From Stappia sp. MMSF_3263 (GTDB taxonomy: Bacteria; Pseudomonadota; Alphaproteobacteria; Rhizobiales; Stappiaceae): DNA of 64,000 nucleotides. The DNA lies in contig NZ_JASHIK010000001.1 in the NCBI RefSeq assembly GCF_030733745.1, positions 62,001 through 126,000 on the forward strand. Direction: 5' to 3'. The notes below the pieces were generated by a model that was not told the origin of the DNA, did no database searches, and saw only the letters and a program-made list of their open reading frames with translations. The stretch's first letter is position 1; each line of letters opens with the position of its first letter. Positions 30,264 through 55,838 of this stretch are shown here, piece after piece. The translations under genes were made by a program, and so were the position numbers.

Positions 30264-30902
30264 CTATCTCTGCAGGCTGTCGACGATCAGCCACAGGCCG
30301 GAGAGCGAATAGACGGCGACCAATGCGTATTTGAAGCCGGCGGAACCGGCCACTGTCTCGCGTGTCAGCATCCTTGAGGAGAACAGCAGCACGTAGCTGG
30401 AGAAGATGACGGCGCCAAGGACGAGGCAGCCGAGAACGATCGCCAGCGGCACATACCAGGGGGAGTCCTGGCGCACGCCCGTTGCGATGATCAGGATCCA
30501 GCCGACGACGGCCTTCGGGTTGAGGATCTGGATGAAGAACCCGCGCCGGAAATTGCCGGCAAGGCTGGTTCCGGCAGTGCCTGCCTCGCCGGCCGTGCCC
30601 GCAGGGCGGCGCATGTTCGTCTTCCAGGCCAGCCACACCAGGTAGAGCCCACCCGCGATGCCGATCGCCGTCATCGCCGCGGGCATGGCGGCAAGCACTG
30701 ATGACAGTCCGATCGCGGCAAGCAGCGCCCATGTCTGGCCTGCGGTCATGACGCCGGCCGTCACCGCAAAGCCGGGCAGGCGGCCCTGCTGGATCGCCGT
30801 GGTGGCGATGGTCATGTTGCCCAGACCCGGGCTTGCCGCGCCGACAATGTAGACGAGGAAGGCGGACAGCATATTCGCCAAATCATGGGGCATGACCGAC
30901 AT
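30264..30902 (-). CDS. LysE family amino-acid exporter
   Basis: A 212-residue six-helix LysE/RhtB-type exporter. The conserved entry IVGAASPGLGNMTIATTAIQQGR lies near residue 18, and NFRRGFFIQILNPKAVVGWI occurs around residues 116-135. An Ala/Gly/Thr-rich linker (RPAGTAGEAGTAGT) separates the two halves. The substrate is unknown; the family exports amino acids or homoserine lactones. It is convergent with the HWE kinase and divergent from the biosynthetic cluster, with 424 bp between start codons. It might serve that cluster, but nothing in the sequence proves this. Confidence 0.88.
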   Translation of the reverse strand: MSVMPHDLANMLSAFLVYIVGAASPGLGNMTIATTAIQQGRLPGFAVTAGVMTAGQTWALLAAIGLSSVLAAMPAAMTAIGIAGGLYLVWLAWKTNMRRPAGTAGEAGTAGTSLAGNFRRGFFIQILNPKAVVGWILIIATGVRQDSPWYVPLAIVLGCLVLGAVIFSSYVLLFSSRMLTRETVAGSAGFKYALVAVYSLSGLWLIVDSLQR

Positions 30903-31094
30903 GTGCCAGGAGATCCGGTAGCGGGTTGAAGGGGAGGGGAAGCGGACGGCGCATTATAGCAAGGTCGCCGCAATCCCAGATAGTCGATATTTGTCTCCAG
31001 CCCGCAATCCGGGTGGCTCCTCGCCTTTCACACTGACAGGAAACGCGTCTTTCAGGGCGTACGCGGCGCACCCTCTAAATTCTTACCCTGATAA

Positions 31095-31272
31095 ATTTAC
31101 GTAAATGTCGGAATGCATATGCATTTGGTCGTCTATTATATAGATAGTGACTCACATGATATATTTAAAGAATTTCGTATTAATCTGTCTTTATGATAGA
31201 TAATACAAAACAAATACTTTGAATATCATGCCAATTTATATGAATTGGCCGGATTTTTGGTGAATCTATACA
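31095..31272 (+). promoter_or_regulatory. AT-rich promoter island with three palindromes upstream of the biosynthetic cluster
   Basis: Within the 424-bp gap 30903-31326, bases from about 31070 to 31310 are strikingly AT-rich against GC-rich surroundings. Perfect palindromes are ATTTACGTAAAT (31095-31106), AATGCATATGCATT (31112-31125) and GCCAATT-N6-AATTGGC (31230-31249). A plausible promoter is TTGGCC (31245-31250), 16 bp, TATACA (31267-31272). The third dyad overlaps its -35 box, centred near -40 as for an activator site. No gene is seen in the gap. Confidence 0.5.
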
Positions 31273-31326
31273 AAATCCCGAGCGTCACGTGTCGACGAAA
31301 CACCATATATGTTTGGAGGATGAAGC

Positions 31327-32304
31327 ATGCTGAACCGGGACGACCAGATCGCTCATGAGATGTTCCAGGAGATCCAGTCTCCGGATCAGCCGCGCCAGAA
31401 GGTGCTCGACAGCCCGCATCTGCACAAGTTGCAAAGGATGCATTTCCTTCTCTTCGACGTGCTGCCGATCGTCGGAACGGTCTGCGCGGTCGCGCTGCTC
31501 TTCTTTCATCCGGTCTCGGTGGTCGACATCGCGCTCTTCGCGGTCATGTGGATACTGACGGGGCTGGGCGTTTCGGTCGGCTATCACCGCCTGTTCACCC
31601 ATCGCAGCTTCAAGACCACGCCGGTGGTGCGTGCGCTTTTCGGCATCTTTGGCTCGATGGCCGGACAGGGCGGTGTGATCTCCTGGACGGCCATGCATCG
31701 CAGACATCATGAGCTGGGCGACCAGGACGGCGACCTGCACTCACCCAACCTGCATGGCAGCGGTCTTGTCGGCAAGCTCAAGGGCTTCGTGCACGCACAT
31801 TTCACCTGGATGGTCGCGCATCCCTATCCCAACGTCGTCCACTATGCCCCGGACCTTCTGAGGGATCCTGTGATCATCTGGGTCAACAGGCACTATTACA
31901 CTTGGATTGTTCTGGGGTTGCTGGCTCCCACGCTGATCGGTGCGCTTGTCACGCAGACCTGGATGGGGGCGGTGACCGGCTTCCTGTGGGGGGGCATGGT
32001 GCGCATGTTCGTCGTCGAGCAGGGGATCTTCTCGCTCAATTCGCTCTGTCACCTGATCGGACGGCGTCGCTTCGTCACCGATGACCAGAGCACCAATATC
32101 AGCTGGCTGGCACCGTTCATCTTCGGGGAATCCTGGCATCACAATCACCATGCCTTCCCCGGTTCCGCGTCGTTCGGCCTTGCTTGGTACCGCATCGACC
32201 CCGGTTACTGGGTCATCTGCATGCTGTCTCTCCTCGGACAGGCCTGGGACGTCAAGGTCCCCACGAGGGAGCAGATCAGCCGCCGGGAAATCCGCGCGTC
32301 CTGA
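31327..32304 (+). CDS. membrane fatty-acid/acyl-ACP desaturase
   Basis: A 325-residue di-iron membrane desaturase of the stearoyl-CoA/JamB-like family. The three histidine boxes are intact: HRLFTH (87-92), HRRHH (124-128) and HHNHH (271-275). About four membrane helices flank them. GGAGGA lies 6 nt before the ATG. It is the first gene of the cluster and sits directly before a stand-alone ACP. With the fatty-acyl-AMP ligase further down, this reproduces the ligase-desaturase-ACP set that makes terminal alkenes or alkynes in jamaicamide-type pathways, or double bonds on ACP-bound chains. Regiochemistry, and desaturase versus acetylenase activity, cannot be read. Confidence 0.9.
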   Translation: MLNRDDQIAHEMFQEIQSPDQPRQKVLDSPHLHKLQRMHFLLFDVLPIVGTVCAVALLFFHPVSVVDIALFAVMWILTGLGVSVGYHRLFTHRSFKTTPVVRALFGIFGSMAGQGGVISWTAMHRRHHELGDQDGDLHSPNLHGSGLVGKLKGFVHAHFTWMVAHPYPNVVHYAPDLLRDPVIIWVNRHYYTWIVLGLLAPTLIGALVTQTWMGAVTGFLWGGMVRMFVVEQGIFSLNSLCHLIGRRRFVTDDQSTNISWLAPFIFGESWHHNHHAFPGSASFGLAWYRIDPGYWVICMLSLLGQAWDVKVPTREQISRREIRAS

Positions 32305-32340
32305 CATTCTCGACCAGCAGTGAAAGAGGAGGGAGATCCC

Positions 32341-32628
32341 ATGGATCATGTCCAGATTGCAGAACAGATCGACGAAGCGGCCGTTGCCGCCTGGCTGAAG
32401 TCCTACATCGCAAATGTGCTCGGCATGGAAGATGCCGCGATCAAGGGCAGCGACGGGCTTGACTCCCTTGGCCTGGACTCGGCGCTGACCACGGCCCTGG
32501 CGATGGACATGGAAGGATGGCTCGGCATCGAGATCCCTCTGGCCATCCTGTTCGAGGCGGAGACGCTCGACAAGATCGCCGAGGGCGTCACGCTCGAGAC
32601 CCAACGCCAGCAGGTAACCGCAGGATGA
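32341..32628 (+). CDS. stand-alone acyl carrier protein
   Basis: A 95-residue acidic carrier protein. The phosphopantetheine serine is Ser47 in SLGLDSALTTALAMD, followed by WLGIEIPLAILFEAETL as in acyl carrier domains of modular clusters rather than housekeeping AcpP. GGAGGGAGA precedes the ATG at 32341. It probably receives a fatty acyl group from the cluster's fatty-acyl-AMP ligase and presents it to the desaturase, methyltransferase and P450. The cluster's own phosphopantetheinyl transferase would activate it. Its stop overlaps the next start as ATGA. Confidence 0.92.
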   Translation: MDHVQIAEQIDEAAVAAWLKSYIANVLGMEDAAIKGSDGLDSLGLDSALTTALAMDMEGWLGIEIPLAILFEAETLDKIAEGVTLETQRQQVTAG

Positions 32629-33524
32629 GCACCGCCATGAAGAACGACCAGCAGGACTATGGCGGCTCGATGGCCGCCGTCCAGTACCACTACGATGTCA
32701 GCCGGGAATTCTACAGCCTCTGGCTGGACGAGAGCCTGACCTATTCCAGCGCTCTTTGGGAAGGCGAGGACGATACCCTGGCCGCAGCCCAGCAGCGCAA
32801 GATCGACCATCACCTGAGCGAGGCGCGGGTCGCGCGGGCGACCTCGCTTCTCGACATCGGTTGTGGCTGGGGCGCGCTCGTGCGCAAGGCCAGCGCCTTT
32901 CCCGCGCTCGAGCGCATCGTCGGGCTGACGCTGAGCGAGGACCAGGCAGACCAGGTCCGCGGCTTCGCGATCCCGAAGATCGAGGTGCGCCTGGAGAGCT
33001 GGACGCAGCACAAGCCGGATCAGCCTTATGACAGCATCATTTCCGTCGGCGCCTTCGAGCATTTCGCCAAGCCCGAGGACAGCCGGGAGGTGAAGATCTC
33101 CACCTACCGGGATTTCTTCTCCACCTGTTCGGGATGGCTGACGCCGGGCGGGCGGCTTTCGCTCCAGACCTTCGTCTACGGCACGATGCGCAACGAGGAG
33201 GCGAGCGAGTTCATCAACGAGGAAATCTTCCCGGCCGCCGACCTTCCCCGGCTGGAGGAGATCGCCGCGGCAATCGACGGCGTGATGGAGATGACCTACC
33301 TGGTCAATCACCGCCTCCACTATGCGCGCACCTATGACGCCTGGGCGCGCAACCTGCGCCGCCGGCGGGACGATGCGGTTCGCCTTGTCGGCGAGGAGGT
33401 CACCGAGCGCTACGAGCGGTACCTGAAACAGACCTCGATCGGTTTCTACACGGGCAAGATCGGCCTGCTTCGCATGTCGCTTCGTCCCACGGACCGTGGC
33501 GTGTCCGTCCTGGCGAAGATCTAG
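32625..33524 (+). CDS. cyclopropane-fatty-acid/mycolate-type SAM methyltransferase
   Basis: A 299-residue enzyme with only the catalytic domain of the CFA synthase family. The SAM site is SLLDIGCGWGALV (about residues 74-86). SVGAFEHF matches the mycobacterial CmaA/PcaA/MmaA form rather than bacterial phospholipid CFA synthase. The N-terminal YHYDVSREFYSLWLDESLTYS is the family substrate-gate segment, and the C-terminus has HYARTYDAWARNL. Mycobacterial relatives act on chains bound to a carrier protein, which fits the coupled ACP (4-bp overlap). The product could be a cyclopropane or a methyl branch placed on the double bond made by the desaturase. Confidence 0.88.
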   Translation: MSTAMKNDQQDYGGSMAAVQYHYDVSREFYSLWLDESLTYSSALWEGEDDTLAAAQQRKIDHHLSEARVARATSLLDIGCGWGALVRKASAFPALERIVGLTLSEDQADQVRGFAIPKIEVRLESWTQHKPDQPYDSIISVGAFEHFAKPEDSREVKISTYRDFFSTCSGWLTPGGRLSLQTFVYGTMRNEEASEFINEEIFPAADLPRLEEIAAAIDGVMEMTYLVNHRLHYARTYDAWARNLRRRRDDAVRLVGEEVTERYERYLKQTSIGFYTGKIGLLRMSLRPTDRGVSVLAKI

Positions 33525-33633
33525 GCCGGCAGGCCTCACCGCTTCTCATCGCGGCATGACAACACGGCGGCGGCGCGGGTCCCGCGTCGCCGGTCGCTCT
33601 CCCCTTGCGTGACCAGGATCAGGGAACAGTGCA

Positions 33634-34923
33634 ATGACCCTCACGGCCCCAACCCAGAGCAAGGTTCCGAACCCGGCCGCTGCGGGACGCGCCGCTGCGG
33701 ACATCGTGTTCAACCCGCTCGATCCCGCCTTCCGGGAGGATCCCTATCCTGTCTATGCAAGGCTGCGCGCGGAGGCGCCGGTCCTGCGGACGAAAGGCAC
33801 GCTGATCCTGTCCCGCTACGAGGACGTGCTTGCCGTCCTCCGCAGCCGGAAATTCAGCGTCAGCCTGATACCCGACACCGTGGTCAAGCAGGCCTCGCGG
33901 CTTCGCTTCACCGAATACGGCCAGATGCTGCGCTTCCTGCTCGCGTCTATCGTCTTCACCGACAATCCCGACCACATGCGGCTGCGCCGGCTGGTCAACC
34001 AGGCCTATTCGAATGAGGTGGTCAACGCCCTCCTGCCGGTGATGACGGACCGGATCGAGCGGCTGCTGGCCGGGCATGCTCGCAACGGTGCCTGCGAGAT
34101 CATCGGCGACATTGCCGAGCCGCTGCCGATCCACATCCTGTGCGACTGGATGGCGGTGGAGGAGGAGGCCCGCCCCGGCATCGCCGAGAAGGTGCACGCG
34201 GTGCGATACCTTCTCGATCCCGGCATGATGAACCGGGCGAGCTTCGAGACCGCCGCACGCAGCATGCAGGAGCTGACGGGCTATTTCGGCGAGCATGCAG
34301 CGCGCCTGCGCAAGTCCGGCAAGGACACGCTGGTGGCCCGGCTCCACGAGGCCCGTTTCGACGGTCAGGGCCTGTCGGACGAGGAAATCGCCTTTGCCTG
34401 CGTGATGTCCTTCGTCGCCGGCACGGAAACGACGCAATGCCTGATCGGCAACATCACGGACGCCCTCCTGAACGAGCCCGGCCAGTTTGCGGCGCTCGCC
34501 GGAGATGACGCCGCGATCCGGGCGGCCATCGAGGAGGTGACGCGGCACGAGACGCCGCTGCAATTCACCAAGCGGCTCGCCGTCGAGGACTGCAACGTCG
34601 GCGGCATCGACATCCAGGCGGGCGAGCAGATCCTGCTGTGTCTTGGCGCTGCCAACCGGGACGAAACCGTTTTCGAGGACGCGGACGCGCTGCAACTGCA
34701 AAGGTCCGGGCCTGCTCATGTCGGCTTCGGCTTCGGCATGCATTCCTGTCTCGGCGCGCTTTTGGGACGCGTGCAGAGCGTCACCTTCCTCAAGGTGCTT
34801 CTGGACGGCTACGAGGCGTTCGAGCGCGTCGAGCAGCAGCGTACCTGGCAGGCCAACAGCCTCATCCTGCGCGGTCCGGCGCGGCTCGACCTGCGCTTCG
34901 CGGCAAGACGGGGGATCGCGTGA
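33634..34923 (+). CDS. cytochrome P450
   Basis: A 429-residue soluble bacterial P450. The I-helix oxygen-binding motif is FVAGTETT (about 260-267), the ExxR salt-bridge motif lies in AIEEVTRHETPLQFTKR, and the heme loop is FGFGMHSCLGALLGR with the heme-ligand Cys at 372. AGGGAA precedes the ATG. No ferredoxin or reductase gene lies in the cluster, so electrons must come from shared partners. It is placed to hydroxylate or epoxidise the ACP-bound acyl chain or the final product, similar to the P450s of polyyne clusters. Confidence 0.92.
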   Translation: MTLTAPTQSKVPNPAAAGRAAADIVFNPLDPAFREDPYPVYARLRAEAPVLRTKGTLILSRYEDVLAVLRSRKFSVSLIPDTVVKQASRLRFTEYGQMLRFLLASIVFTDNPDHMRLRRLVNQAYSNEVVNALLPVMTDRIERLLAGHARNGACEIIGDIAEPLPIHILCDWMAVEEEARPGIAEKVHAVRYLLDPGMMNRASFETAARSMQELTGYFGEHAARLRKSGKDTLVARLHEARFDGQGLSDEEIAFACVMSFVAGTETTQCLIGNITDALLNEPGQFAALAGDDAAIRAAIEEVTRHETPLQFTKRLAVEDCNVGGIDIQAGEQILLCLGAANRDETVFEDADALQLQRSGPAHVGFGFGMHSCLGALLGRVQSVTFLKVLLDGYEAFERVEQQRTWQANSLILRGPARLDLRFAARRGIA

Positions 34924-35699
34924 GGGCGTGCACCGACATATTCGCGAGCGATCGCAAGGAAAGCGCGCTCGATCTCTATGCCTTCCATCACGCGGGCGGC
35001 AGTCGTCATTCCTTTGCCGCCTGGCAGAACCGCTTTCCCGATGCCATCGCCCTCCACCGGGTGCAGCTTCCCGGGCGAACCGCGGAAACGAGCGACCTTC
35101 TACCGAAATGGGCGGGGGGATTGATCCCGGACCTGGCGCGCAGCTTCCTGCGCGAGCGCGCGGGAACGCAAAGGCCGTATGTCTTCTACGGCCACAGCCT
35201 CGGTGCGCTGATCGCCTTCGAACTGGCCCGGTTCTTACGCCTGCTCGGTGAGCAGATGCCCGTCGGGCTTGTCGTTGCCAGCCGGCGTGCGCCGCAATGC
35301 CAGCTCACCCATGGCGAGCTTTTCAGCCTGCCCGACGGGGATCTCGTCGCCGCGCTGCATCGTCTGGGCGGCGTTCCCGCGCATATGCGCGGCAAGGACG
35401 ACTGGCTGCGACAGATGCTCCCGGTCATCCGGGCCGACCTGATGCTCTCCGACATCTACCGCTATGCCGGCCAGCCGCCGTTTGCCTGCCCGATCCTGGC
35501 GGTCAAGGGATTCGACGATCCGATCCTCTCGCGCGACGAGCTCGCCGCCTGGTCGACCCACACGACACGGGAGTTCGTCTGCGCAGAACTGTCGGGCGCG
35601 CATTTCTTCGATGCCGCGGGAACGGCGCAACTGCAGGAAATTCTCGTAGAGACACTGGCCCGCTGGGTCGAATTCGAGCCCGCGGCCGTGCCCGCGTAA
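34920..35699 (+). CDS. type II (GrsT-like) thioesterase
   Basis: A 259-residue alpha/beta hydrolase of the external thioesterase family. The nucleophile is Ser93 in YGHSLGAL, with acid and base candidates Asp in KGFDDPI and His in SGAHFF. LYAFHHAGGSRHSFAAWQ at the N-terminus and LPGRTAETSD are family signatures. The GTG start at 34920 overlaps the P450 stop (GTGA). Such enzymes clear misloaded carrier proteins. Because the NRPS here has no thioesterase domain, it could also release the product. Confidence 0.9.
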   Translation: MRACTDIFASDRKESALDLYAFHHAGGSRHSFAAWQNRFPDAIALHRVQLPGRTAETSDLLPKWAGGLIPDLARSFLRERAGTQRPYVFYGHSLGALIAFELARFLRLLGEQMPVGLVVASRRAPQCQLTHGELFSLPDGDLVAALHRLGGVPAHMRGKDDWLRQMLPVIRADLMLSDIYRYAGQPPFACPILAVKGFDDPILSRDELAAWSTHTTREFVCAELSGAHFFDAAGTAQLQEILVETLARWVEFEPAAVPA

Positions 35700-35721
35700 A
35701 CAGCCTTTCCGGAGGGACACC

Positions 35722-37497
35722 ATGCTGGACAAGAGACACGAGTTGAGCGCCCCGGCCGTACCGACCTTGTGGGGCCTTCTGGACGGGTTCGCCGCCGCGC
35801 GGCCCGACGAGCGGGCATTCCTGTATCTTGGCCCGGACAATGTCGAGCAGGAGGTCCTGACCTATGCCGAGCTGCTTCGCCTGGCGCGGGTCTATGGCCA
35901 GCGCCTGCGGCAGCACTCGCGCCCCGGCGACCGGGTCATCCTGATGTTCCCCTCGGGACTTGCTTTCGTCGTGGCCTTCTTCGCCTGTCACTTTGCCGGC
36001 GTCGTTCCCGTGCCCATGGTGCCGCTGAAGGGGCAGCGGTTGCGCAACACGGTGCATGCCATCGCCGAAAATTGCGCGGCATCTATCGTTCTCAGCAATG
36101 TCGAGCAGGCCGAACTCGTTCACGCCCAGCTCAGCCCGTTGCCGAGCTACCGGGAGGCGACCTATATCGCGGTCGATCTCGACGACGGCTCTCCGGCGCC
36201 GGTGGCGGACGCCCATGAGGCCTCGCCGGAAGAACTCGCCTTCATCCAGTACACGTCCGGATCCACGTCGGTTCCCAGGGGCGTCATGGTCAGCCATGCC
36301 AACCTGGCGGCCAATCTGGAGATGATGGCCGAAGCCTTCGGCAATGACGACACGCCCACCTATGTCGGCTGGGCGCCGCTCTATCACGACATGGGACTGA
36401 TCGCGAACGTGCTGGAACCGTTCTATCTCGGGTCCTTCTGCATCCTTATGTCGCCGAACCTCTTCGCCCACCGGCCGTGGCTGTGGCCCAAGGCGATCAG
36501 CGACTACCGCGCCGTCGTCAGCGGCGGGCCGAACTACGCCTATGATCTTTGCATCGAGCGGCGCGACCAGATCCTGGAGGCCGGCTTTGACCTGTCGTCC
36601 TGGAAGCTCGCATTCAACAGCGCCGAGCCGGTGCGTGCCGGCACGCTGGAGAAATTCGCCAAGACCTTCGCGCCGATCGGCTTCCGGCCGCAGACCTTCT
36701 ACCCCTGTTTCGGGATGGCGGAGGCGACCTTGCTGATCACGGGCGGCAGCCGCAAGGAGGAACCGATCATTCGCTCGGTGAGCCGCGGCGGCCTTGCCCG
36801 GGGAAGCGCGGGCCCGCCAGTCGACGAGAAGGACGAAACCCTTGCGGTCGGCTGCGGCCGGGCGCTGCGCGACGAGACGCTGCGTATCGTCGATCCGGAG
36901 ACCTCGGTGGCACTGCCCGACGGTGAGGTCGGCGAGATCTGGGTTGCGGGGCCGCATATTCCCGAAGGCTACTGGGGCCATGCGAAGGCCTCGAAGGAGA
37001 CGTTCCATGCGAAGGTCGACGGCGAACCCGGTCCCCGCTTTCTAAGGACAGGGGATCTCGGCTTCATCCTTGACGACGAGCTCTACGTCACCGGGCGGCA
37101 CAAGGACCTGATTATCGTCCGCGGCCATAACGTCTACCCGCAGGACATCGAGTACATGGCCGAACGGGCCTGGCCGGGGTTGAAGAAGAATTCCGGTGCG
37201 GCGTTTGCCGTGGAGGATCCGGAGACCGGCATCCAGACTCTGGTCCTTGCCCAGGAGGTGATGATGGGCAACCGGCAGGCGATCGACATCGACGCGGCGA
37301 CCAAGGCGATCCGCCAGGAGATCCTGAAGGAGGCGGACGTGACGGTTCACAAAATCGTCCTGCTCGACCCGGGCTCTATCCCCAAGACGTCGAGCGGCAA
37401 GATCCGCCGCGCCGAGACGAGAACCCGCTACCTGGACGAGACGCTGTCGATCTTGACGAGGCGCTCGCCGGCCACGGCGGCGGCCGGCAGCGACTGA
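35722..37497 (+). CDS. fatty-acyl-AMP ligase (FAAL)
   Basis: A 591-residue ANL-superfamily enzyme. The P-loop is FIQYTSGSTSVPRGVMVSH (about 174-192), and the aromatic/acid motif is FYPCFGMAEATLLITGG. The stretch following (SRKEEPIIRSVSRGGLARG) corresponds to the FAAL-specific insertion that blocks CoA ligation, so transfer to a carrier protein is expected. The hinge-region GDLGFILDDELYVTGRHKD and C-terminal Lys in PKTSSGKIRR are present. GGAGGG precedes the ATG. It should adenylate a free fatty acid and load the cluster's ACP. Chain length cannot be read. Confidence 0.92.
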   Translation: MLDKRHELSAPAVPTLWGLLDGFAAARPDERAFLYLGPDNVEQEVLTYAELLRLARVYGQRLRQHSRPGDRVILMFPSGLAFVVAFFACHFAGVVPVPMVPLKGQRLRNTVHAIAENCAASIVLSNVEQAELVHAQLSPLPSYREATYIAVDLDDGSPAPVADAHEASPEELAFIQYTSGSTSVPRGVMVSHANLAANLEMMAEAFGNDDTPTYVGWAPLYHDMGLIANVLEPFYLGSFCILMSPNLFAHRPWLWPKAISDYRAVVSGGPNYAYDLCIERRDQILEAGFDLSSWKLAFNSAEPVRAGTLEKFAKTFAPIGFRPQTFYPCFGMAEATLLITGGSRKEEPIIRSVSRGGLARGSAGPPVDEKDETLAVGCGRALRDETLRIVDPETSVALPDGEVGEIWVAGPHIPEGYWGHAKASKETFHAKVDGEPGPRFLRTGDLGFILDDELYVTGRHKDLIIVRGHNVYPQDIEYMAERAWPGLKKNSGAAFAVEDPETGIQTLVLAQEVMMGNRQAIDIDAATKAIRQEILKEADVTVHKIVLLDPGSIPKTSSGKIRRAETRTRYLDETLSILTRRSPATAAAGSD

Positions 37498-37566
37498 CCC
37501 TCGCGGGCGGCGCTGAAAATGCCGCTGCCCGCGGTACCAACCCGAAATGACGAGGCGGATCAGACC

Positions 37567-37992
37567 ATGTCCGAGGACCAGGCACCGGCACTCTCCCGTG
37601 AGGAGATCGAGGCGATCATCGCAAAGACGCCCTTCGCGGTCTGGGTGGGCGCACGCCTCGACATCTACCGGCGGGGCGAGGTCGAGATCAGCATCCCGAT
37701 GCGCCGCGACCTGACGCAGCATCACGGCTTTGGCCATGGGGCCATCATCGGCTTCCTTGCCGACAGTGCCTGTGCCTGGGCGGGGGCCTCGGTGGCCGGC
37801 GACGTCGTGACGTCGGAATACAAGCTGAACCTGGTGGCGCCGGCCGTCGGTCAGACTCTCGTGGGATGCGGCTCGGTCGTCCATGCCGGAGGGCGTCAGG
37901 TCGTCTGCCGCGCCGATCTCTACGCCATCGCGTCCGAACGGCGAAAGCTCGTGGCGACCGCGCTTGCCACGATCGTTCAGGTCAAACGGTAA
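37567..37992 (+). CDS. PaaI-family hotdog thioesterase
   Basis: A 141-residue single hotdog domain. The motif QHHGFGHGAIIGFLADSACAWAG (about residues 50-72) matches PaaI-type thioesterases, with a Gly-His-Gly turn and a catalytic Asp. The last strand is TALATIVQVKR. The ATG at 37567 is used; the upstream frame adds no homology. It could hydrolyse acyl-CoA or acyl-ACP to supply the free acid for the ligase, or act as a dehydratase-like tailoring enzyme. It lies 26 bp before the oxygenase gene. Confidence 0.82.
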   Translation: MSEDQAPALSREEIEAIIAKTPFAVWVGARLDIYRRGEVEISIPMRRDLTQHHGFGHGAIIGFLADSACAWAGASVAGDVVTSEYKLNLVAPAVGQTLVGCGSVVHAGGRQVVCRADLYAIASERRKLVATALATIVQVKR

Positions 37993-38018
37993 CAACAAAC
38001 CGCCTGGGAGGTTGCACT

Positions 38019-39044
38019 ATGTACCACACCGAAAACCCGCTCGGCTCCGACATGCCGATCATCGTCTGGTCGCCCGCCAACGGGCGCGGTTTCGACCTTG
38101 ACGGCCTTACCCGCTATCTCGCCGACAGCAAGGACCGCCTGTCGACCCAGCTCGACGAGCACGGCGGCGTGCTGCTGCGCGGCTTCGACTGCGTTCGCTC
38201 CTCCGACGACTATCAGAAGGTTCTCGATGTCGTCGCGCCGGATCTGATGGACTATGTCGGCGGCACCTCGCCGCGCAAGGTGGTCAACGGCCGGATCATG
38301 ACGGCGACCGAGATCCCCGGCACCTATTCAATCCCGCTGCACCAGGAGATGTCCTACACCGACAACTCACCCGATCGCATCTCCTTCTTTTGCGAGCGCC
38401 CGGCCACGGAAGGCGGCGAGACGACCATCGGCGACATGCGTGCCATCACCCGGAACATGGACGCCGCGGTCCGGGACCGTTTCGAGGCGCATGGCGGCGT
38501 TCAGCTCTGCCGCAACCTGCCGCTTCCCGACCGGGTCGACGCGCGTCCCGGCGTGCCCAAGACCTGGCACGAGGTCTTCGCGACCAAGGATCGCAGCGAG
38601 GCTGAAAAGGTCGCCGAGAAGTCAGGCTGGCGTTTCGAGTGGATGGAGGACGGTTCCATGCAGCTCTGGCAGGAGGTGCGACCCACCACCCGCCTGCACC
38701 CCAGGTCCGGCGACGAGGTCTGGTTCAACCAGGTTCACATCTTCTCGCCTGCCTCCGCCCTGAAGTGGGCGCGCGAGGACGGGCGTACAGAGGCGGCGGA
38801 CAGGCTGGCCCGGGCGCTCGAGGAGGCGCCGCAGTTGCTCGACCACATGCGCTATGGCGATGGAACGGAGATCGAGGAAGCCGACGTGCTGCACATCTAC
38901 GACGTGCTCACGGCCAATGCCCGGCCGGTCAAGTGGCAGGCCGGCGACGTGCTCATCCTCGACAACATCCTGGTGGCCCACGGTCGTCGCAAGTTCGCCG
39001 GTGACAGGAGCGTGCTGACCGCGCTCATCCAGCACGCCCACTAG
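38019..39044 (+). CDS. SyrP-like Fe(II)/2-oxoglutarate dioxygenase (TauD/TfdA superfamily)
   Basis: A 341-residue non-heme iron oxygenase. The facial triad is HxE (LHQEMSY, His108 and Glu110) with distal His321 in VAHGRRKF. The context FFCERPATEGGETTIGDMR is characteristic of the SyrP-like branch of Fe(II)/2-oxoglutarate oxygenases, which hydroxylates carrier-bound or free amino acids (SyrP makes 3-hydroxyaspartate). GGGAGG lies 8 nt upstream of the ATG. It probably hydroxylates the beta carbon of the amino acid loaded by the NRPS. The Glu in place of Asp argues against an isonitrile-forming ScoE-type role. Confidence 0.86.
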   Translation: MYHTENPLGSDMPIIVWSPANGRGFDLDGLTRYLADSKDRLSTQLDEHGGVLLRGFDCVRSSDDYQKVLDVVAPDLMDYVGGTSPRKVVNGRIMTATEIPGTYSIPLHQEMSYTDNSPDRISFFCERPATEGGETTIGDMRAITRNMDAAVRDRFEAHGGVQLCRNLPLPDRVDARPGVPKTWHEVFATKDRSEAEKVAEKSGWRFEWMEDGSMQLWQEVRPTTRLHPRSGDEVWFNQVHIFSPASALKWAREDGRTEAADRLARALEEAPQLLDHMRYGDGTEIEEADVLHIYDVLTANARPVKWQAGDVLILDNILVAHGRRKFAGDRSVLTALIQHAH

Positions 39045-39123
39045 GTATTGCTCGCGGCTCCGGGAGGGCTTCGTCCGAACGGCTCTCCCCGGTCCCGTTG
39101 CCCCATCTTATCGGAAGAAGACC

Positions 39124-39933
39124 ATGCTGAAGACAGTATCGAACCAGAACACTGACCGCTCGAACGCAGACGGGCACCAGGAGGAGGCCTTGCTGCGCGT
39201 TCAGCTTGCCGAATTCTACCATCTCGTCGCCTATCTCGGCTGGACGGAGATGATCTTCAATCACATCTCCCTGCGGGTGCCCGGCCCGGACGGGCATTAC
39301 CTCGTCAATCCCTTCGGCCTCCATTACGAGGAGGTGACACCGGACAATCTCGTCAAGGTCGACGTGGAGGGCAATCTCGTCGGAACGTCGGACTACCCGC
39401 CGAACCGCACCGGATTCGCGCTGCATGGGGCGATTCACGAGGCGCGCGACGACATCCACTGCATTGCCCACACGCATACGACGCCGATCTCCGCGATTGC
39501 CCTCAAGGAAGACGGCTTCACCTATGACGACTTCTACGGCGCTCAGCTTTACGGCCGGGTGGGCTATCACGCCTTCGAGGGGGTCACGGTCTTTGCCGAA
39601 GAGCGGCCGCGCATGATCGCCAGCCTTGGCGACAGGAACGTGCTCGTTCTGCGCAACCACGGCATCGCGGTTGGCGAGCGTGATGTGCCGCGCACCTTCT
39701 GGCTGCTCTACACCGCGCAGCGCGCGGCCGAGATCCAGTGCCAGGCGGGCACGCTCCCCGGCGCCAACACCGGTCTGGGCGTCGACGTGCGCGAACGCTG
39801 CTCGCAGGTCGCGGAGGAACTTATTGCCGGCGATGCCTTCGCCGCCAAGCTGTTCGACGCGATGATGCGCAAGGTCCGGCGCGACAAGGGCCCCCTTTGG
39901 GCCGGAGATACCGCGCCCGACCGGCTGCGGTAG
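39124..39933 (+). CDS. class II aldolase/adducin family protein
   Basis: A 269-residue protein. The zinc-binding block CIAHTHTTPISAIAL (about residues 115-129) and the third His in VLRNHGIAVGE are intact, and FNHISLRVPGPDGHYLVNPFG is typical of the branch found in secondary-metabolite clusters. Catalytic members cleave or epimerise hydroxy-carbonyl compounds through a zinc enediolate. In NRPS clusters the role is mostly undefined. Its place next to a probable amino-acid beta-hydroxylase makes retro-aldol or epimerisation chemistry on a beta-hydroxy acyl group a reasonable guess, no more. Confidence 0.85.
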   Translation: MLKTVSNQNTDRSNADGHQEEALLRVQLAEFYHLVAYLGWTEMIFNHISLRVPGPDGHYLVNPFGLHYEEVTPDNLVKVDVEGNLVGTSDYPPNRTGFALHGAIHEARDDIHCIAHTHTTPISAIALKEDGFTYDDFYGAQLYGRVGYHAFEGVTVFAEERPRMIASLGDRNVLVLRNHGIAVGERDVPRTFWLLYTAQRAAEIQCQAGTLPGANTGLGVDVRERCSQVAEELIAGDAFAAKLFDAMMRKVRRDKGPLWAGDTAPDRLR

Positions 39934-40057
39934 GGCCGGTCACCCTGATCTGGAGTTCGTTCGATTTTCCGGCAGGCCTTGGACGAGCTTCACATCCGCC
40001 ACACTGGTGCGAACGCGCCTGCCGCGCGTTCTCCGAGATTGCGGAGGTTCACGTCCC

Positions 40058-41032
40058 GTGTCACTTGCAGAAAAAAGCACAAGCCAGGTCCCCAGGGAGC
40101 GACCGGGCGTATGGGCCAGCAGCTTCCGGGTGCAGCTCGGTATGCCGCATCTCGCGTTCAGTGGCCTGTCCGAGGCCTGGCTGCTCAAGGAACTGGGGCA
40201 TCGCCACTGGAGGCAACTGGCGCGCATGGCCGCATCCGGGTTGCCCGATTTCTACGACGCGGCCGGCAACATCGTCTATGCGGCCTTCCGTTCCGTGCAG
40301 ATCGAGGATGCCCGCTTCGATCTGGCCAAGGAGAACGACACGCTCGTCATCCGCTCGAACCTGGTGCGGATCTCGCGCACGCAGGTGCAGAGCGAGCACC
40401 GCCTGACCATAGGCGGCGCCTTGATCGGGACCATCCGGATGGTGTCCGTCTTCGTGCACCGCAACGGCAAGTCTTCGAACCGCTCCGTTGTCCGGGTCGA
40501 GATCCAGGGCCTGCCGCCGATTTCGCAGGCGCACAGGTCGGCGCTGATCAGGCCCTCCGTCGAAGGGACGATCTGGGATATGGACGCTGTCGAGACCGCA
40601 GGCCGCCGGCCGCAGGTTTTCTTTCCGTGCCCCTCGCAGGATTTCAACGGCGCGGGCTTTCTCTACTTTGCCAATGTGCCGGCCTTCGTCGACCGCGCGG
40701 AATGGAATGTCGATCAGGACTTCGCCCGCAATGCCGTCACCCGCTGGCGGCATGTCACCTATCTCGCCAACATCGATCCCGGCGAGGCGATTTCGATCGA
40801 GGTGGTCGATTTCGAGCGCAGCCCCGTCCTGTGGCGGCACAAATGCCGGGTCACCCGCGCCACGGATGGCAAGCACATGGCCGATGTTCTCACCGTGCGG
40901 AGCCGGGTAGAGGTTGCCGGCTCCAGACGAATCGCCGCCCCTCGGCAAGTCGGTTGCGTCGGCGGTCCGAACTGTCCTGGAAAGCAGCGCTGTGCCGCGA
41001 TGCCGGCCGGATGCGGTTCTGTATCTTCGTGA
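40058..41032 (+). CDS. LnmK-like double-hotdog biosynthetic protein (Pnap_2097-type)
   Basis: A 324-residue protein resembling the LnmK / Pnap_2097 biosynthetic families. The entry LGMPHLAFSGLSEAWLLKEL, the ELGHRHW follow-on, and the later AEWNVDQDFARNA with RWRHVTYLANID are the features I recognise. LnmK is a bifunctional methylmalonyl acyltransferase/decarboxylase that loads propionyl groups on a carrier protein for beta-alkylation. Here no polyketide synthase or HMG-type cassette is present, so the substrate is open. The GTG at 40058 has GGAGG 11 nt upstream; a GTG at 40007 is the longer alternative. The name is from memory of the family, not a search. Confidence 0.7.
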   Translation: MSLAEKSTSQVPRERPGVWASSFRVQLGMPHLAFSGLSEAWLLKELGHRHWRQLARMAASGLPDFYDAAGNIVYAAFRSVQIEDARFDLAKENDTLVIRSNLVRISRTQVQSEHRLTIGGALIGTIRMVSVFVHRNGKSSNRSVVRVEIQGLPPISQAHRSALIRPSVEGTIWDMDAVETAGRRPQVFFPCPSQDFNGAGFLYFANVPAFVDRAEWNVDQDFARNAVTRWRHVTYLANIDPGEAISIEVVDFERSPVLWRHKCRVTRATDGKHMADVLTVRSRVEVAGSRRIAAPRQVGCVGGPNCPGKQRCAAMPAGCGSVSS

Positions 41033-41097
41033 CAAGGCTGTGCAGGCCCGGATTTTACACCCTGGCGGGATCGTGATATCCGGCTTGCATGTATGTG

Positions 41098-41129
41098 TTG
41101 GAGTATGCAGCGATTATTACTGGTATATT
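41098..41129 (+). promoter_or_regulatory. possible internal promoter before the NRPS gene
   Basis: The 205-bp gap 41033-41237 breaks the otherwise tight spacing of the cluster and becomes AT-rich near 41100-41150. An extended -10, TGGTATATT (41121-41129), is visible, with TTGGAG (41098-41103) too far upstream (20 bp) to be a normal -35. If real, it would let the NRPS and the phosphopantetheinyl transferase be expressed separately. Confidence 0.3.
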
Positions 41130-41237
41130 TTACAATAAGAACATGTGGAACCGGATCGCTCTCCGGTTCTTTGCTTTTCTTCGAGCGATATCCGTTTGTT
41201 TCGACGGTACCCCGGTCGCGATGACGAGGGAAGATTC

Positions 41238-44210
41238 ATGACATTTTCGGTGCTGCGGCGGATCGAGGAGACCGCCCTGGCGCATGGCGACCTCATCGCC
41301 ATGGAGGAAGGAGACCGACGGCTCTCCTATGCCGGACTTGTCGAATGCATCCGCCATGTTGGACGGCAGGGGCTGGCGATGCCAGGCCCGGGGCTTGTCG
41401 GCATCAACGGGCGGCCGTCGATCGAGGCCGGTATCGGCATCCTGGCGGCGATGGCGTCGGGCGACGTCGCCGTGCCGGTCGACGCACGGCTGCCACCCGC
41501 GCGCCAGCAGGCGCTGCTTGACTGGTGCGATGTCGCGCAGGACCGTGGTGCAGTCTCTGCGATCCTGGCGGATCCGGCCGGCGGGACAAAGGTTCCCGGC
41601 GCAGCGGCAAGTGTGGTTGCCGCCCGCATCGAGCGGCAGCCGGCCTATGTCACCTTTACCTCCGGCACGACCGGCGAGCCCAAGGCCATCGAGGGAACGA
41701 TGGAGGGCATCGACCATTTCATGGCCTGGCAGTCGCAACTTGTGGGCGCGTGGATCGACCGCCCCCGCGTCTCCTGGCTGACGCCGCTTTCCTTCGACGT
41801 TATGTATCGGGACCTGCTGCTGCCGCTGTGCACGCAAGGGACGCTGGTGATCCCGCACAGCGGATCCGGTTTCAACATCGCCTCCGGCTGGAACTGGCTG
41901 ATCGGGCAGGATATCGACATCGTCCATGTGGTGCCCTCGATCATGGGGGCCTGGCTTGCCGGTGGCGACTTGCCGCCGCTTCCCGCAGCTGCCCTGTTCT
42001 TTGCCGGCGAACCGCTGAAGCAGCATCTGGTCGACGACCTGAAGCCTCGCTACGCGGGCCGCATCTACAATCTTTATGGTCCCTCCGAGACGACGATGGC
42101 CAAGTTCTGCCGCCGCGTTGATGACGGCTGCCCGACACGCGGCGGGCTCTATCCGGTCGGTCGGCCGATTGACGAGGCGGTCACCTACACAGTGTCGGGG
42201 GAGGGGGAGGTCATCATCCGCTCGCCCTTTCTCACCAATGGCTACCGGAAGAAGGACGGCACGGTGACGCCCTTTTCCGCTGCCTCGCCAGGCTGGCGCA
42301 GCTATCCGACCGGTGACCGTGGTGAAGTGATCGACGGCGAGCTCTACCTGCTCGGCCGGATCGATGGCCAGATGAAGGTCAACGGCATCCGCATCGAGGC
42401 CGGCGAGGTCGAGCGGCTGGCGGAAAGCTGCGTGGGGGTCGCGCGCGCCGTCGTCGTCAAGCTGGCGCCGCCCGAGGCTCCGCTGGAGACGCTGGCGCTG
42501 TTCCATCAGGGCGACAAGGCCTGCGAGGCAACGTTGCGCGCGCATCTCGCTGACAACCTGCACCCCGCCATTGTCCCGACATTCTATGCTGCTCTGGCCA
42601 GCTTCCCCGTCACCATCAACGGCAAGGTGGATCGCAAGGCGCTTGCCGCGCTGGCGATCGGGCGGCTCGCCGCTCCCTGCAACGCGAAGGCGGGCGGGGC
42701 GTCCTCCAGTGAGGCTGCAAGCCATGTCCAGGCGGTGATTTCGAAAGTGCTGCGGCGCCCTTGCGGCCTCGACACGGATTTCGTCAGCATCGGCGGCAAC
42801 TCGCTGATGTCCGGCCTGATCGCGCTGGAACTGGAGACCGCCTTCGGCATATCGCTCCCGCAGGACCTGTTCTACCGGTCCGGCACGCCGCGTGCGATCG
42901 CCGGCTGGCTGGAGCGCAACGGCGGCGCCTACCGGCCGCCGGTGACGGAGACGCCGCGCGCGGCCGCACGCCAGGTGGAGGGGCGGGACTGGCCGCTGAC
43001 CAGTCGGCAGCAGACCATCTACAACATCTTCTGCAAGGACCTGTTCGGCGCTGCCATCAACATGATCCTGCAGGTGCCGTTTCCCGCCGGCGCGGCCGGT
43101 CGGATCCGCGAGGCGGTGTCGCAGGTCATCGCCGGCAACGACTGCTTCCACCTTCGCTTCCGCCAGGGCGAAGGCGGCCTGTGCCAGTATTTCGTGCCGA
43201 CCCGGTGCGGACCAGGGGATTTCGAGGAGGTCGAGGCGCGGGAAGCGGATTTCGACCGACTGGCCACCGCCTTTGCCGAGCGGGTCTTCGACATCGAGAC
43301 CGAGTGCCCCTTTCGCCTGCTGCTGCTGACCGCCCCCTCCGGCGCCGGACGTCTCGTCCTGTCGATGCATCACCTGATCAGTGACGGCATGTCGCGCGAA
43401 TACATCCGGCGCGACATCGAGGACGGGCTTGCAGGCGTCACTGTGGCGCCGCGCACACCCTTCAGCTCGGTGCTTGGCTCCCAGCGCGAGGGCGAGAAAT
43501 CCCGCTCGACCGCCTATTGGCTGAGGCATATCGGCGCCGCGCCGCCAATGAAGCGGTTCATCGCCGAGGTCGACAAGCACGATATGTCTGGCCGGTCGCT
43601 GACGGTGCCGCTTGGCTGCGATCACGCTGCCCTGCTCTCGACGGCGAAGGAGATGCAGACCGGCGTCTTTCCCTATCTCATGTCGCATTTCTACCGCGCC
43701 ATGGCGGGGCATGTCGGCATCGACGATCTTATCATCCGGGTTACCACCCACGGTCGCTATCGGCCGGAACTGCTCGACACGCTCGGCCTTGTCTTCAGCG
43801 CCGTGCCGCTGCGTCTCGATTGCGCGGCAGCGCCGACACGCGAGATCGTCGCCTATCTCGACCGCTTGCTCGACGAGGCGCGCGAGCACCAGGATATCGG
43901 CTTCGAGGACCTGGCGCGGCTGACCGGCCAGGCGCTCGACGAGCGCATCCACCCGATCACCGGCATCAGCTTCGCCCTCGACGGTTATGACGTGAGCGAG
44001 CGCATGCCCGCCGGCCTGGCGATGGCGCCAAGAGGCGGAGCGATCCGCGCCTCGCTGCCGCACGAGATGCTGGCCTTCGCCCGGCCCTATGCCGACGGCT
44101 GCGCCCTGCGGTTCCTCTATCGCACCAGGGCCTTCTCGGATGACGACATTCTCGCCATCGTGTCGCGGATGAGAAAGGCGATCGAGGGTGAGCTTGTCAT
44201 CGGGGCTTGA
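41238..44210 (+). CDS. non-ribosomal peptide synthetase, domain order A-T-C
   Basis: 990 residues. The adenylation domain (about 1-470) has A3 TFTSGTTGEPKAI, A5 YGPSETT (about 280), A8 QMKVNGIRIEAGE and A10 NGKVDRK; SFDVMY keeps the Asp that binds an alpha-amino group. The thiolation domain (about 490-570) carries IGGNSLMSG with the pantetheine Ser near 521. The condensation domain (about 600-985) has an intact HHLISDG (about 710). No thioesterase, reductase or epimerase domain follows. One amino acid is loaded in cis, and the terminal C domain most likely joins it to the ACP-bound acyl chain. GAGGG lies about 7 nt before the ATG. Confidence 0.93.
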   Translation: MTFSVLRRIEETALAHGDLIAMEEGDRRLSYAGLVECIRHVGRQGLAMPGPGLVGINGRPSIEAGIGILAAMASGDVAVPVDARLPPARQQALLDWCDVAQDRGAVSAILADPAGGTKVPGAAASVVAARIERQPAYVTFTSGTTGEPKAIEGTMEGIDHFMAWQSQLVGAWIDRPRVSWLTPLSFDVMYRDLLLPLCTQGTLVIPHSGSGFNIASGWNWLIGQDIDIVHVVPSIMGAWLAGGDLPPLPAAALFFAGEPLKQHLVDDLKPRYAGRIYNLYGPSETTMAKFCRRVDDGCPTRGGLYPVGRPIDEAVTYTVSGEGEVIIRSPFLTNGYRKKDGTVTPFSAASPGWRSYPTGDRGEVIDGELYLLGRIDGQMKVNGIRIEAGEVERLAESCVGVARAVVVKLAPPEAPLETLALFHQGDKACEATLRAHLADNLHPAIVPTFYAALASFPVTINGKVDRKALAALAIGRLAAPCNAKAGGASSSEAASHVQAVISKVLRRPCGLDTDFVSIGGNSLMSGLIALELETAFGISLPQDLFYRSGTPRAIAGWLERNGGAYRPPVTETPRAAARQVEGRDWPLTSRQQTIYNIFCKDLFGAAINMILQVPFPAGAAGRIREAVSQVIAGNDCFHLRFRQGEGGLCQYFVPTRCGPGDFEEVEAREADFDRLATAFAERVFDIETECPFRLLLLTAPSGAGRLVLSMHHLISDGMSREYIRRDIEDGLAGVTVAPRTPFSSVLGSQREGEKSRSTAYWLRHIGAAPPMKRFIAEVDKHDMSGRSLTVPLGCDHAALLSTAKEMQTGVFPYLMSHFYRAMAGHVGIDDLIIRVTTHGRYRPELLDTLGLVFSAVPLRLDCAAAPTREIVAYLDRLLDEAREHQDIGFEDLARLTGQALDERIHPITGISFALDGYDVSERMPAGLAMAPRGGAIRASLPHEMLAFARPYADGCALRFLYRTRAFSDDDILAIVSRMRKAIEGELVIGA

Positions 44211-45066
44211 AGATGCCCACTCCCCGACCTGGCATCGGTGGCCCGGCGAAGGCGCGGTGCGCGGCGGCCTGTCGGTCTGGCTCTGTCGCGACGCGGAGCC
44301 GGACGCAGCGGCTGCCATCGCCATTTGCCGTGATTGCCTGAGCGACGAGGAACTGGCCCGCATGACGCGCTTCCGGTTTCCCGCTCTGCGGCAACAGTTC
44401 GCCATCGCTCATGGCTTTGTCCGTCATGTTCTCTCGCTCTTCCATCCGCAGGTGGCGCCGCGCGACTGGCGCTTCGACACCGGCGCGCAGGGCAAGCCGG
44501 AGGTCGCCACCGGCCTGCCGCGTGTCGGATTCAACCTGTCGCACGCCACGGGGCTTGTCGCGCTTGCGGTTGCGTATGACGAGACGGGGGTTTTTAGCGG
44601 CGACCCGGTCGGCGTGGATGTCGAACAGGCCACCCGCAACATCGGTCCCGGCATCGCGCGGCGCTATTTCGCACCCGAGGAAGTGACGGATCTGGAAGCC
44701 TTGCCTGAACCGGAACAGCGTGATCGCTTCTTCGCTCTCTGGAGCCTGAAGGAGAGCTATATCAAGGCGACGGGCTATGGCCTGTCGATGCCGCTAGACA
44801 GTTTTTCCTTCGCCTTCGATGCACCGGGCTGTGTCTCCTTCCGGCGCCATCCCGATCGTCTCCCGCCGGAATTTGCGACCGATCATTTCACTCCTGTCTT
44901 CTGGCAGACGATGCTGTCCTCGCCGGCAGGCGAGCGCCATTCGCTTGCCTTGTGTACCGGCGCGGGCACCCTTCAGGACGATGCCATCACGGTCTTCGAG
45001 ACCGTTCCAGGACGCGCGGTACGCCGTCTCGATCCCGTCTGGGACAGGCGCCCGGCCGAAACCTGA
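44188..45066 (+). CDS. Sfp-type 4'-phosphopantetheinyl transferase
   Basis: Transfers phosphopantetheine from CoA to carrier-protein serines. The 292-residue enzyme has the magnesium-binding VGVDVEQATRN and the FFALWSLKESYIKATGYGL motif with catalytic Glu/Lys. The N-terminal half includes FVRHVLSLFHPQVAP and GKPEVATGLPRVGFNLSHA. The GTG start at 44188 lies inside the NRPS 3' end (23-bp overlap), so the two are coupled. It should activate both the stand-alone ACP and the NRPS thiolation domain. It is the last gene of the cluster and is followed by a strong terminator. Confidence 0.93.
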   Translation: MSLSSGLEDAHSPTWHRWPGEGAVRGGLSVWLCRDAEPDAAAAIAICRDCLSDEELARMTRFRFPALRQQFAIAHGFVRHVLSLFHPQVAPRDWRFDTGAQGKPEVATGLPRVGFNLSHATGLVALAVAYDETGVFSGDPVGVDVEQATRNIGPGIARRYFAPEEVTDLEALPEPEQRDRFFALWSLKESYIKATGYGLSMPLDSFSFAFDAPGCVSFRRHPDRLPPEFATDHFTPVFWQTMLSSPAGERHSLALCTGAGTLQDDAITVFETVPGRAVRRLDPVWDRRPAET

Positions 45067-46076: not shown

Positions 46077-46103
46077 CGTCTCCTCCTTCGAATGGCTAGA
46101 AAG

Positions 46104-49560: not shown

Positions 49561-49632
49561 GTCCTCCCTCCCGGTTCCGTGCTCCGGCGCCGCCGGTCTG
49601 TCGCCGCTTCCGCCGGGTGGATGACTAATCTA

Positions 49633-49660
49633 TTACACTAATATAATAATGAGTGCAAGA
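49633..49660 (-). promoter_or_regulatory. promoter and candidate GntR operator of the sugar ABC operon
   Basis: TTACACTAATATAATAAT followed by GAGTG (49633-49655) nearly repeats the site at 52292. On the minus strand TTGCAC and TAATAG lie 17 bp apart across it, giving a promoter for the ATPase gene starting at 49560. The rest of the 128-bp gap 49561-49688 shows nothing else. Confidence 0.5.
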
Positions 49661-49688
49661 CTTGACCCGCCCACTCTTGCAGCCGGCC

Positions 49689-50558: not shown

Positions 50559-50567
50559 GGGGCGACC

Positions 50568-51413: not shown

Positions 51414-51459
51414 GTCATGTCTCCGGAAAAGTTGGAAAGATCGGATAGGGGGGGAGGGA

Positions 51460-52206: not shown

Positions 52207-52278
52207 CTTGGAAGTTCCTCCTGTTGCAAGGGCCGGGCCGCCGTCCGTCGCCGCCCTGCGGCCCGTCCGCATTGCGGA

Positions 52279-52320: not shown

Positions 52321-52415
52321 GGATGACGCCCGCGATTTGATTGACGCATGCTATTTTTCGCGACAATCCGAGGTCAATCGGTCAAGACGGCCGCGGACAA
52401 ATTGGGGTTTGGAAC

Positions 52416-53156: not shown

Positions 53157-53182
53157 TCCGGACAAGAAGAGAGAGGCAGCCC

Positions 53183-55825: not shown

Positions 55826-55838
55826 GCTGAACTGTATA

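Follow-up and report, generated by a model that had tools for sequence, protein, structure and literature searches.

A conserved and rare orphan gene cluster in Stappia, with a probable N-acyl amino acid product

A 64,000-nt stretch of Stappia sp. MMSF_3263 (host genome 5.02 Mb), here called the window, carries a real and rare orphan biosynthetic cluster in which an acyl module, an amino-acid module and an exporter gene lie side by side. They are probably parts of one cluster whose product would be an N-acyl amino acid that is exported and carries an oxidised chain with a C1 branch. A preliminary description had proposed twelve same-strand genes between 31327 and 45066, and all 12 frames were found there on the + strand. 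The twelve named families were likewise matched by profiles (FA desaturase, ACP, CMAS, P450, TE, AMP-binding/FAAL, 4HBT, TauD, Aldolase_II, TIGR04099/TIGR04098, AMP-binding + PP-binding + Condensation, and ACPS), and the active-site motifs of the desaturase, ACP, P450, type II thioesterase, TauD protein and NRPS, read straight from the sequence, are intact. The conserved unit consists of eleven of these genes, from the desaturase to the nonribosomal peptide synthetase (NRPS), together with a divergent LysE-type exporter gene that had been overlooked.

The order of the eleven genes is kept in five other genomes of the genus among the 17 loci compared, and all eleven genes were checked in each of these five. 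Identities to the window range from 63 to 65% for the NRPS and from 72 to 87% for the other genes. The TIGR04099 gene of the cluster occurred above its cut-off in 6 of 14 genus genomes, own genome included. The same eleven genes in the same order were also found on plasmid pCSC3H3 of Thalassospira marina, which belongs to a different order of Alphaproteobacteria, with identities of 53-76%. Such recurrence in the same order indicates that the cluster is more than a product of chance. Purifying selection was found on all 11 genes when compared to one Stappia relative, TSB10P1A, with ratios of nonsynonymous to synonymous substitution rates (dN/dS) of 0.14-0.35.

The LysE-type exporter gene (30264..30902, - strand; PF01810) is separated from the desaturase by an AT-rich intergenic region (30903..31326), which would act as a divergent promoter region shared by both. 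An orthologue with 74-78% identity was present in each of the 5 other cluster-bearing Stappia genomes. Among the 8 cluster-free genomes of the genus, three carried a paralogue of 30-34% identity and five had no match at E<=1e-20. Since the orthologue appears in exactly the cluster-bearing Stappia genomes, the exporter should be counted in as part of the unit, the supporting genomes being related and not independent. A LysE gene with 61% identity also lies upstream of the Thalassospira cluster, with a LysR gene in between.

The phosphopantetheinyl transferase (PPTase) of the Sfp/HetI type (44188..45066, + strand; PF01648) adjoins the cluster and is a neighbour, not a conserved member. It had no match within the other five Stappia cluster loci, and these genomes hold a single relative of 43-45% identity elsewhere. 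One match per genome was obtained in all 14 genus genomes (E<=1e-10), with the cluster present or absent, and in the own genome the cluster-side gene is the sole copy. Another PPTase is encoded about 5 kb from the Thalassospira cluster; it was not counted as an orthologue, as it gave no blastp match to that of the window at E<=1e-3. The proposed twelve-gene unit therefore holds as a co-inherited biosynthetic cluster, with the PPTase taken out, being absent in place in five Stappia, and the exporter brought in. Outside the unit, the sequence to the right of the cluster in three relatives is similar to that at about 62250-64000 of the window, while the stretch to the left of LysE, of which up to 13 kb was compared, was not found in the window. 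The surroundings are thus shared in part and rearranged in part.

The rarity of the cluster was assessed with profile searches. At E<=1e-60, the TauD profile matched 1 of 385 class genomes and the methyltransferase profile 1 of 398 phylum genomes, in both cases the own genome; both samples were even draws from larger groups and weaker matches fall below the thresholds, so that other carriers are possible. Searches with TIGR04099 yielded 15 loci beyond the own and the five Stappia loci, 3 of them weak matches. Twelve of the 15 were examined over 9.5-20 kb (E<=1e-6), of which 11 gave the LnmK-like match only and one gave only a 30% thioesterase match. TIGR04099 was dropped as a marker of the cluster, as none of the 12 loci examined beyond Stappia represents it.

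Genes 1-7, all on the + strand, make up the acyl module. The membrane acyl desaturase (31327..32304; PF00487; PDB 4ymk, acyl-CoA desaturase 1, 80 bits) has all three His boxes intact in the sequence. It is followed by a discrete acyl carrier protein (ACP; 32341..32628; PF00550) with the carrier Ser in DSLGLDS, an S-adenosylmethionine (SAM)-dependent methyltransferase of the CMAS fold (32625..33524; PF02353, 208.7 bits), and a cytochrome P450 (33634..34923; PF00067) with the heme motif FGFGMHSCLG. The start of the type II thioesterase (34920..35699; PF00975, match listed from 34929; GHSLG) was corrected to a likely GTG at 34920 that overlaps the P450 stop. The best PDB matches of the gene at 35722..37497 were 7r7e (named polyketide synthase, 438 bits) and 3kxw (saframycin synthetase B), with further matches to chains named acyl-CoA synthase, FadD32, FadD23 and fatty acyl-adenylate ligase; its product is predicted to be a fatty acyl-AMP ligase (FAAL) and not an acyl-CoA ligase. 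A PaaI-type hotdog thioesterase (37519..37992; PF03061, TIGR00369; PDB 3e1e, 69 bits) closes the module.

Relatives of this module were found on plasmids of other bacteria. After Thalassospira, the plasmid matches of methyltransferase and desaturase listed were Pseudonocardia alni pPaSha1 and Rhodococcus opacus pRho-G13, then Polaromonas JS666 plasmid 2, and Tistrella pTM3 was also matched by both. On pPaSha1 the genes are arranged as PaaI, LysR, desaturase, ACP, methyltransferase, P450, hydrolase and FAAL, and on pRho-G13 as desaturase, ACP, methyltransferase, P450, an unmatched frame of 241 residues in the place of the thioesterase, FAAL, hotdog and P450. Desaturase and methyltransferase of these two modules share 54-56% and P450 and FAAL 40-43% identity with the cluster, and the Rhodococcus hotdog matches that of the cluster at 35%. 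Both thioesterases are present in the cluster, while the type II thioesterase is unmatched on pRho-G13 and the hotdog on pPaSha1. The two plasmids thus hold the genes and the order of the acyl module, but TauD, aldolase-like, LnmK-like and A-T-C NRPS genes gave no match above 45 bits in the 28.9-kb stretches searched. As a near-complete module occurs on actinobacterial plasmids without genes 8-11, genes 1-7 look transferable and resemble a module that is also found in another phylum. Next to the pPaSha1 module, genes for an extra P450, a CoA ligase, a biotin carboxylase, a carboxyltransferase and a type I polyketide synthase (PKS) were observed, of which all but the P450 form a set reminiscent of mycolate-type condensation.

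Shorter sets are carried by the remaining plasmids. The Polaromonas set reads FAAL, transposase, desaturase, ACP, methyltransferase, desaturase and ketosynthase, and in the Tistrella set, desaturase, methyltransferase and FAAL precede genes for an acyl-CoA dehydrogenase and an enoyl-CoA hydratase-like protein. On two Sphingobium plasmids the methyltransferase adjoins a FAAL/acyl-CoA synthetase. In Sphingobium indicum B90A pSRL2 (record 70201-74081), an annotated N-acyl-homoserine lactone (AHL) synthase is followed by ACP, a methyltransferase of the Gln type described below, and FAAL; Sphingobium sp. TomMM15 has a similar layout with two upstream frames annotated as hypothetical. Like the cluster, the S. 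indicum set combines ACP, Gln-type methyltransferase and FAAL, but its acceptor enzyme is annotated as AHL synthase instead of NRPS and no desaturase match was found in the set. It possibly represents a quorum-signal synthase that is fed by a FAAL-loaded, SAM-modified acyl-ACP. Because of the AHL synthase beside these genes, such an ACP-bound chain may feed N-acylation elsewhere too. Genes 8-11 occurred together only in Stappia and Thalassospira within what was searched, and the best matches in the plasmid collection after Thalassospira were 36% identical for TauD and 28% for the NRPS.

The preliminary description had implied a cyclopropane-type methyltransferase. While the CMAS fold was recovered, the His of the bicarbonate site is replaced by Gln. 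The motif SLQT with this Gln occurs in 7/7 cluster loci, and Gln was present at the same site in 5/5 distant relatives, whereas the mycolate methyltransferases 1l1e and 1tpy carry His there in the alignment. We take this residue to correspond to His167 of CmaA1. A nearby Cys is retained in four of the distant relatives, whereas Sphingobium indicum, Thalassospira and the Stappia loci have Ser instead. With its bicarbonate site changed, the enzyme is less likely to carry out simple cyclopropanation.

Genes 8-11 appear to be responsible for making and attaching a single amino acid. The start of the Fe(II)/2-oxoglutarate oxygenase of the TauD family (38019..39044, +; PF02668) was corrected to about 38019, which is the likely position. 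Its HxE...H...R ligands are invariant in 7/7 loci, and two PDB matches were obtained at E<=1e-3, At3g21360 (127 bits) and 9yut (122 bits). The predicted structure had a mean predicted local distance difference test score (pLDDT) of 40 and was not used.

The following gene (39124..39933, +; PF00596; NF005451 above cut-off) encodes a metalloprotein of the class II aldolase fold. Its metal ligands are kept, with H-T-H and R-N-H-G invariant in 7/7 loci. At the site of the catalytic Glu of class II aldolases, Glu73 in FucA, the 7 loci and the fungal enzyme TqaM have N-x-x-GF, and 3ocr has N-x-x-GY. The highest PDB matches were 3ocr (uncharacterised, 177 bits) and adducins (142 and 120 bits), followed by TqaM (9m09, 82 bits, E 3.5e-22), a chain named fuculose-1-phosphate aldolase (74 bits), 9n43 (68 bits) and NovR (52 bits). 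In addition to N-x-x-GF, IH-x-AR-x-DIH...H-x-H is shared with TqaM, which appears to be the closest characterised oxidative relative, although it is outscored by 3ocr and the adducins, which are of other or unknown function. "Class II aldolase" consequently describes the fold and the HxH...H ligands and not an activity, as the catalytic Glu is absent and TqaM is among the nearest characterised relatives. TqaM is a non-heme iron oxygenase that converts 3-amino-2-hydroxy-3-methylbutanoate to 2-aminoisobutyrate by oxidative decarboxylation (PMC11880133, PMC12192607).

The LnmK-like/Pnap_2097-family protein (40007..41032, +, start uncertain) scored 283 bits with TIGR04099 (cut-off 125) and 234 bits with TIGR04098 (cut-off 100), and phmmer matched no PDB chain at E<=1e-3. 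In another genus of the family, a TIGR04099 member was found beside nitrilase, radical SAM, GNAT, AIR-synthase-like, flavoprotein and nitroreductase genes, a locus that to us looks like the Nit1C cyanide-related cluster.

The NRPS (41238..44210, +) has the unusual order adenylation-thiolation-condensation (A-T-C), with GGNS in the T domain. Its start was corrected to a likely position of about 41238, which leaves a gap of 205 bases behind lnmK. The code of the A domain, DVRHFALMAK, was identical in 7/7 loci by motif reading, while the A domains themselves are 59-69% identical to that of the window; it is also unchanged despite an evolution of the NRPS about twofold faster than that of its neighbours. 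Of the known codes, that for serine, DVWHFSLVDK, comes closest, but position 239 is Arg here, which perhaps points to a small polar or acidic side chain. The C domain (PF00668, 104 bits) has an intact HHxxxDG motif in the window (HHLISDG), whose second His is kept in 5 aligned sequences and whose first His is Tyr in Thalassospira. The proposed combination of FAAL and ACP with a single A-T-C module is thus borne out by families and motifs.

A route to the product can be outlined from the enzyme families. FAAL would activate a fatty acid and load it onto the discrete ACP, where the desaturase may introduce a cis double bond. The methyltransferase would then add a carbon from SAM at the double bond as a methyl branch or ring, and the P450 would oxidise the chain, with the hotdog and type II thioesterases serving in editing or release. 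In the second half, one amino acid would be loaded by the A domain onto the T domain and could be oxidised there by TauD and the TqaM-like protein, and the LnmK-like protein may move or decarboxylate an acyl group. The terminal C domain would join the ACP-bound chain to the amino acid, and LysE would export the N-acyl amino acid. In this genome, both carriers are probably primed by the adjacent PPTase.

This single-product pathway is supported by a gene order that 6 of the 14 Stappia-genus genomes share with T. marina, and by the LysE orthologue in exactly those 6. The separate occurrence of similar acyl modules, the unchanged A-domain code in diverged A domains and the purifying selection on all 11 genes are also in its favour. 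Several points weigh against it. The seven loci were located via lnmK or the NRPS, by which clusters lacking those genes would be missed. With a dN/dS of 0.35 compared to 0.14-0.21 for the other genes, the NRPS evolves about twice as fast, and the hotdog of the cluster was not matched by any of the PaaI genes annotated beside the Pseudonocardia module. N-acylation is not usually carried out by an A-T-C arrangement, it is hard to see where the LnmK-like step would fit in when there is no ketosynthase, and LysE exporters usually carry small amino acids and not lipids. Finally, the 205-base gap before the NRPS holds a terminator-like hairpin (41147-41170) in the window, where terminator-like sites are no commoner than in shuffled sequences (11 compared to 8.8, standard deviation 3.6).

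That gap and hairpin would also suit two separate products, a free modified fatty acid and a modified amino acid exported by LysE, with the two modules being mere neighbours. The similar acyl module without genes 8-11 on two actinobacterial plasmids is in line with this, as is the export of amino acids by LysE transporters known for the family. However, all 11 genes occur together in 7/7 loci (chosen by lnmK or NRPS), no hairpin was found at this place in the one Stappia relative scanned or on the + strand in Thalassospira, and the second His of HHxxxDG is conserved among the 5 C domains aligned. Two separate products are therefore regarded as unlikely.

Equally unlikely is a route via an aminomalonyl or similarly shortened unit. 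Here the A domain would load Asp (or Ser), TauD would form a beta-hydroxy acid on the carrier, and oxidative decarboxylation of the alpha-hydroxy-acid end by the TqaM-like protein would give aminomalonyl-T; the LnmK-like protein, as a decarboxylase/acyltransferase, would act on this malonyl-type thioester and the chain would be joined at the nitrogen or the alpha-carbon. This route was considered because of the gene order and of the HOOC-CH(OH)-C(N) unit common to 3-hydroxyaspartate and the substrate of TqaM. The order TauD, aldolase-like, LnmK-like and NRPS is the same in 7/7 loci and would match the order of reactions, the LnmK-type model is above cut-off, Arg at code position 239 agrees with it, and so do the sequence similarity to TqaM and the TqaM chemistry (PMC11880133). 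On the other side, the route is inferred at every step, 3ocr and the adducins outscore TqaM, and the TIGR04099 member in the nitrilase/radical SAM locus sits in a different setting. Asp codes also look different from DVRHFALMAK. If the route were true, it would be a new way to make and use an aminomalonyl unit, attached to a mobile acyl module common to phyla.

Two further readings are considerably less probable. A small lipid siderophore of the acyl-beta-hydroxyaspartate type would fit Arg239, which suits an acidic substrate, and SyrP-type TauD enzymes hydroxylate Asp in lipid siderophores; yet no TonB receptor or iron-uptake gene was found among the flanking genes examined, and a single residue is a weak chelator. 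An isonitrile lipopeptide-type pathway, in which the hotdog protein adds glycine and TauD makes the isonitrile, agrees in five protein types (FAAL, ACP, hotdog, TauD and NRPS) and in the order FAAL-hotdog-TauD with the actinobacterial isonitrile clusters, but was rejected as the main reading because neither the two PDB matches of TauD nor the four of the hotdog at E<=1e-3 are named isonitrile enzymes (ScoE-type or ScoD-type, judged by match names and not by direct alignment), although such chains exist in the PDB; moreover, the Rhodococcus hotdog match accompanies an acyl module with no TauD match listed, the unit has no acyl-CoA dehydrogenase, and the cluster has desaturase, methyltransferase, P450, aldolase-like and LnmK-like genes in addition.

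The pathway to an N-acyl amino acid was also compared to described systems. Modules of the jamaicamide JamA/B type (PMC11837247) and of the polyyne type resemble the cluster in that FAAL loads a discrete ACP and a membrane desaturase acts on the chain, with a hydrolase and a P450 nearby as in a polyyne-like set of Streptomyces goshikiensis. They differ in having several desaturases where the cluster has one, in alkyne-forming steps that are replaced by the CMAS-type methyltransferase, and in the NRPS partner, which is a single A-T-C module here. Polyyne clusters were rejected as an identity on these key genes.

In AFC-BC11 (afc) of Burkholderia, FAAL, a sole discrete carrier, desaturases, a methyltransferase and an A domain are likewise combined for an N-acyl peptide, but afc lacks a condensation domain and its product is a dehydro-beta-alanine trimer (PMC12186527). 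This identity was also rejected, as the cluster has the A-T-C NRPS with its condensation domain plus the TauD, TqaM-like and LnmK-like genes. The fungal TqaL/TqaF/TqaM amino-acid pathway likewise pairs an Fe/2OG oxygenase with a class II aldolase-fold protein, there an oxidative decarboxylase (PMC11880133, PMC12192607 and PMC10764440). The TauD protein of the cluster gave no match to TqaL (7EEH according to PMC11880133) at E<=1e-3, the unit has no TqaF-like gene, and its substrate is likely carrier-bound.

Among the papers listed in searches of the open-access literature, none was found to describe a pathway with these genes, in agreement with the preliminary description. "Apparently undescribed" applies to the whole gene set and less so to genes 1-7, which are close to the module recurring on actinobacterial plasmids. 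As far as seen, a FAAL-initiated lipo-amino acid cluster is of a known kind and this combination is new. In a 2026 survey of 17 Stappia assemblies, 181 clusters were reported, grouped into 52 families plus 22 singletons, and MIBiG matches were obtained for just two families, sesbanimide and ectoine (PMC12997852).

The cluster represents a compact eleven-gene pathway, conserved and probably mobile, in a little-studied marine genus. Two of its family names are misleading, as the aldolase-fold protein lacks the aldolase residue and the relative of cyclopropane synthases has lost the His of the bicarbonate site. An LnmK-like protein that is not accompanied by a ketosynthase is a further feature of note. 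The recurrent module of FAAL, ACP, desaturase and methyltransferase suggests an exchangeable source of C1-branched acyl carriers from which different clusters may supply their NRPS, PKS or AHL synthase.

In the intergenic region between LysE and desaturase, the alignment of the 6 Stappia regions contained a short invariant block, GAC-CAC---ATA--TTTAAAG-ATTTCG. Promoter-like sites were not in excess, with 2 compared to 2.0 in shuffles. An inverted repeat of 20 bases with perfect arms of 7 bases (31230-31249) lies in the promoter region of the window, and a repeat with those arms was not found in the intergenic regions of the five relatives. A Cache-domain HWE histidine kinase gene (28274-30046, + strand) ends about 1.3 kb upstream of the desaturase start. 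Downstream, 45141-57646 (- strand) is a sugar-acid catabolic region with a ribose-type ABC transporter, altronate/galactarate dehydratase and a tripartite ATP-independent periplasmic (TRAP) transporter, along with L-fuconolactonase-like and 2,4-didehydro-3-deoxy-L-rhamnonate hydrolase-like proteins that scored below the NCBIfam cut-offs.

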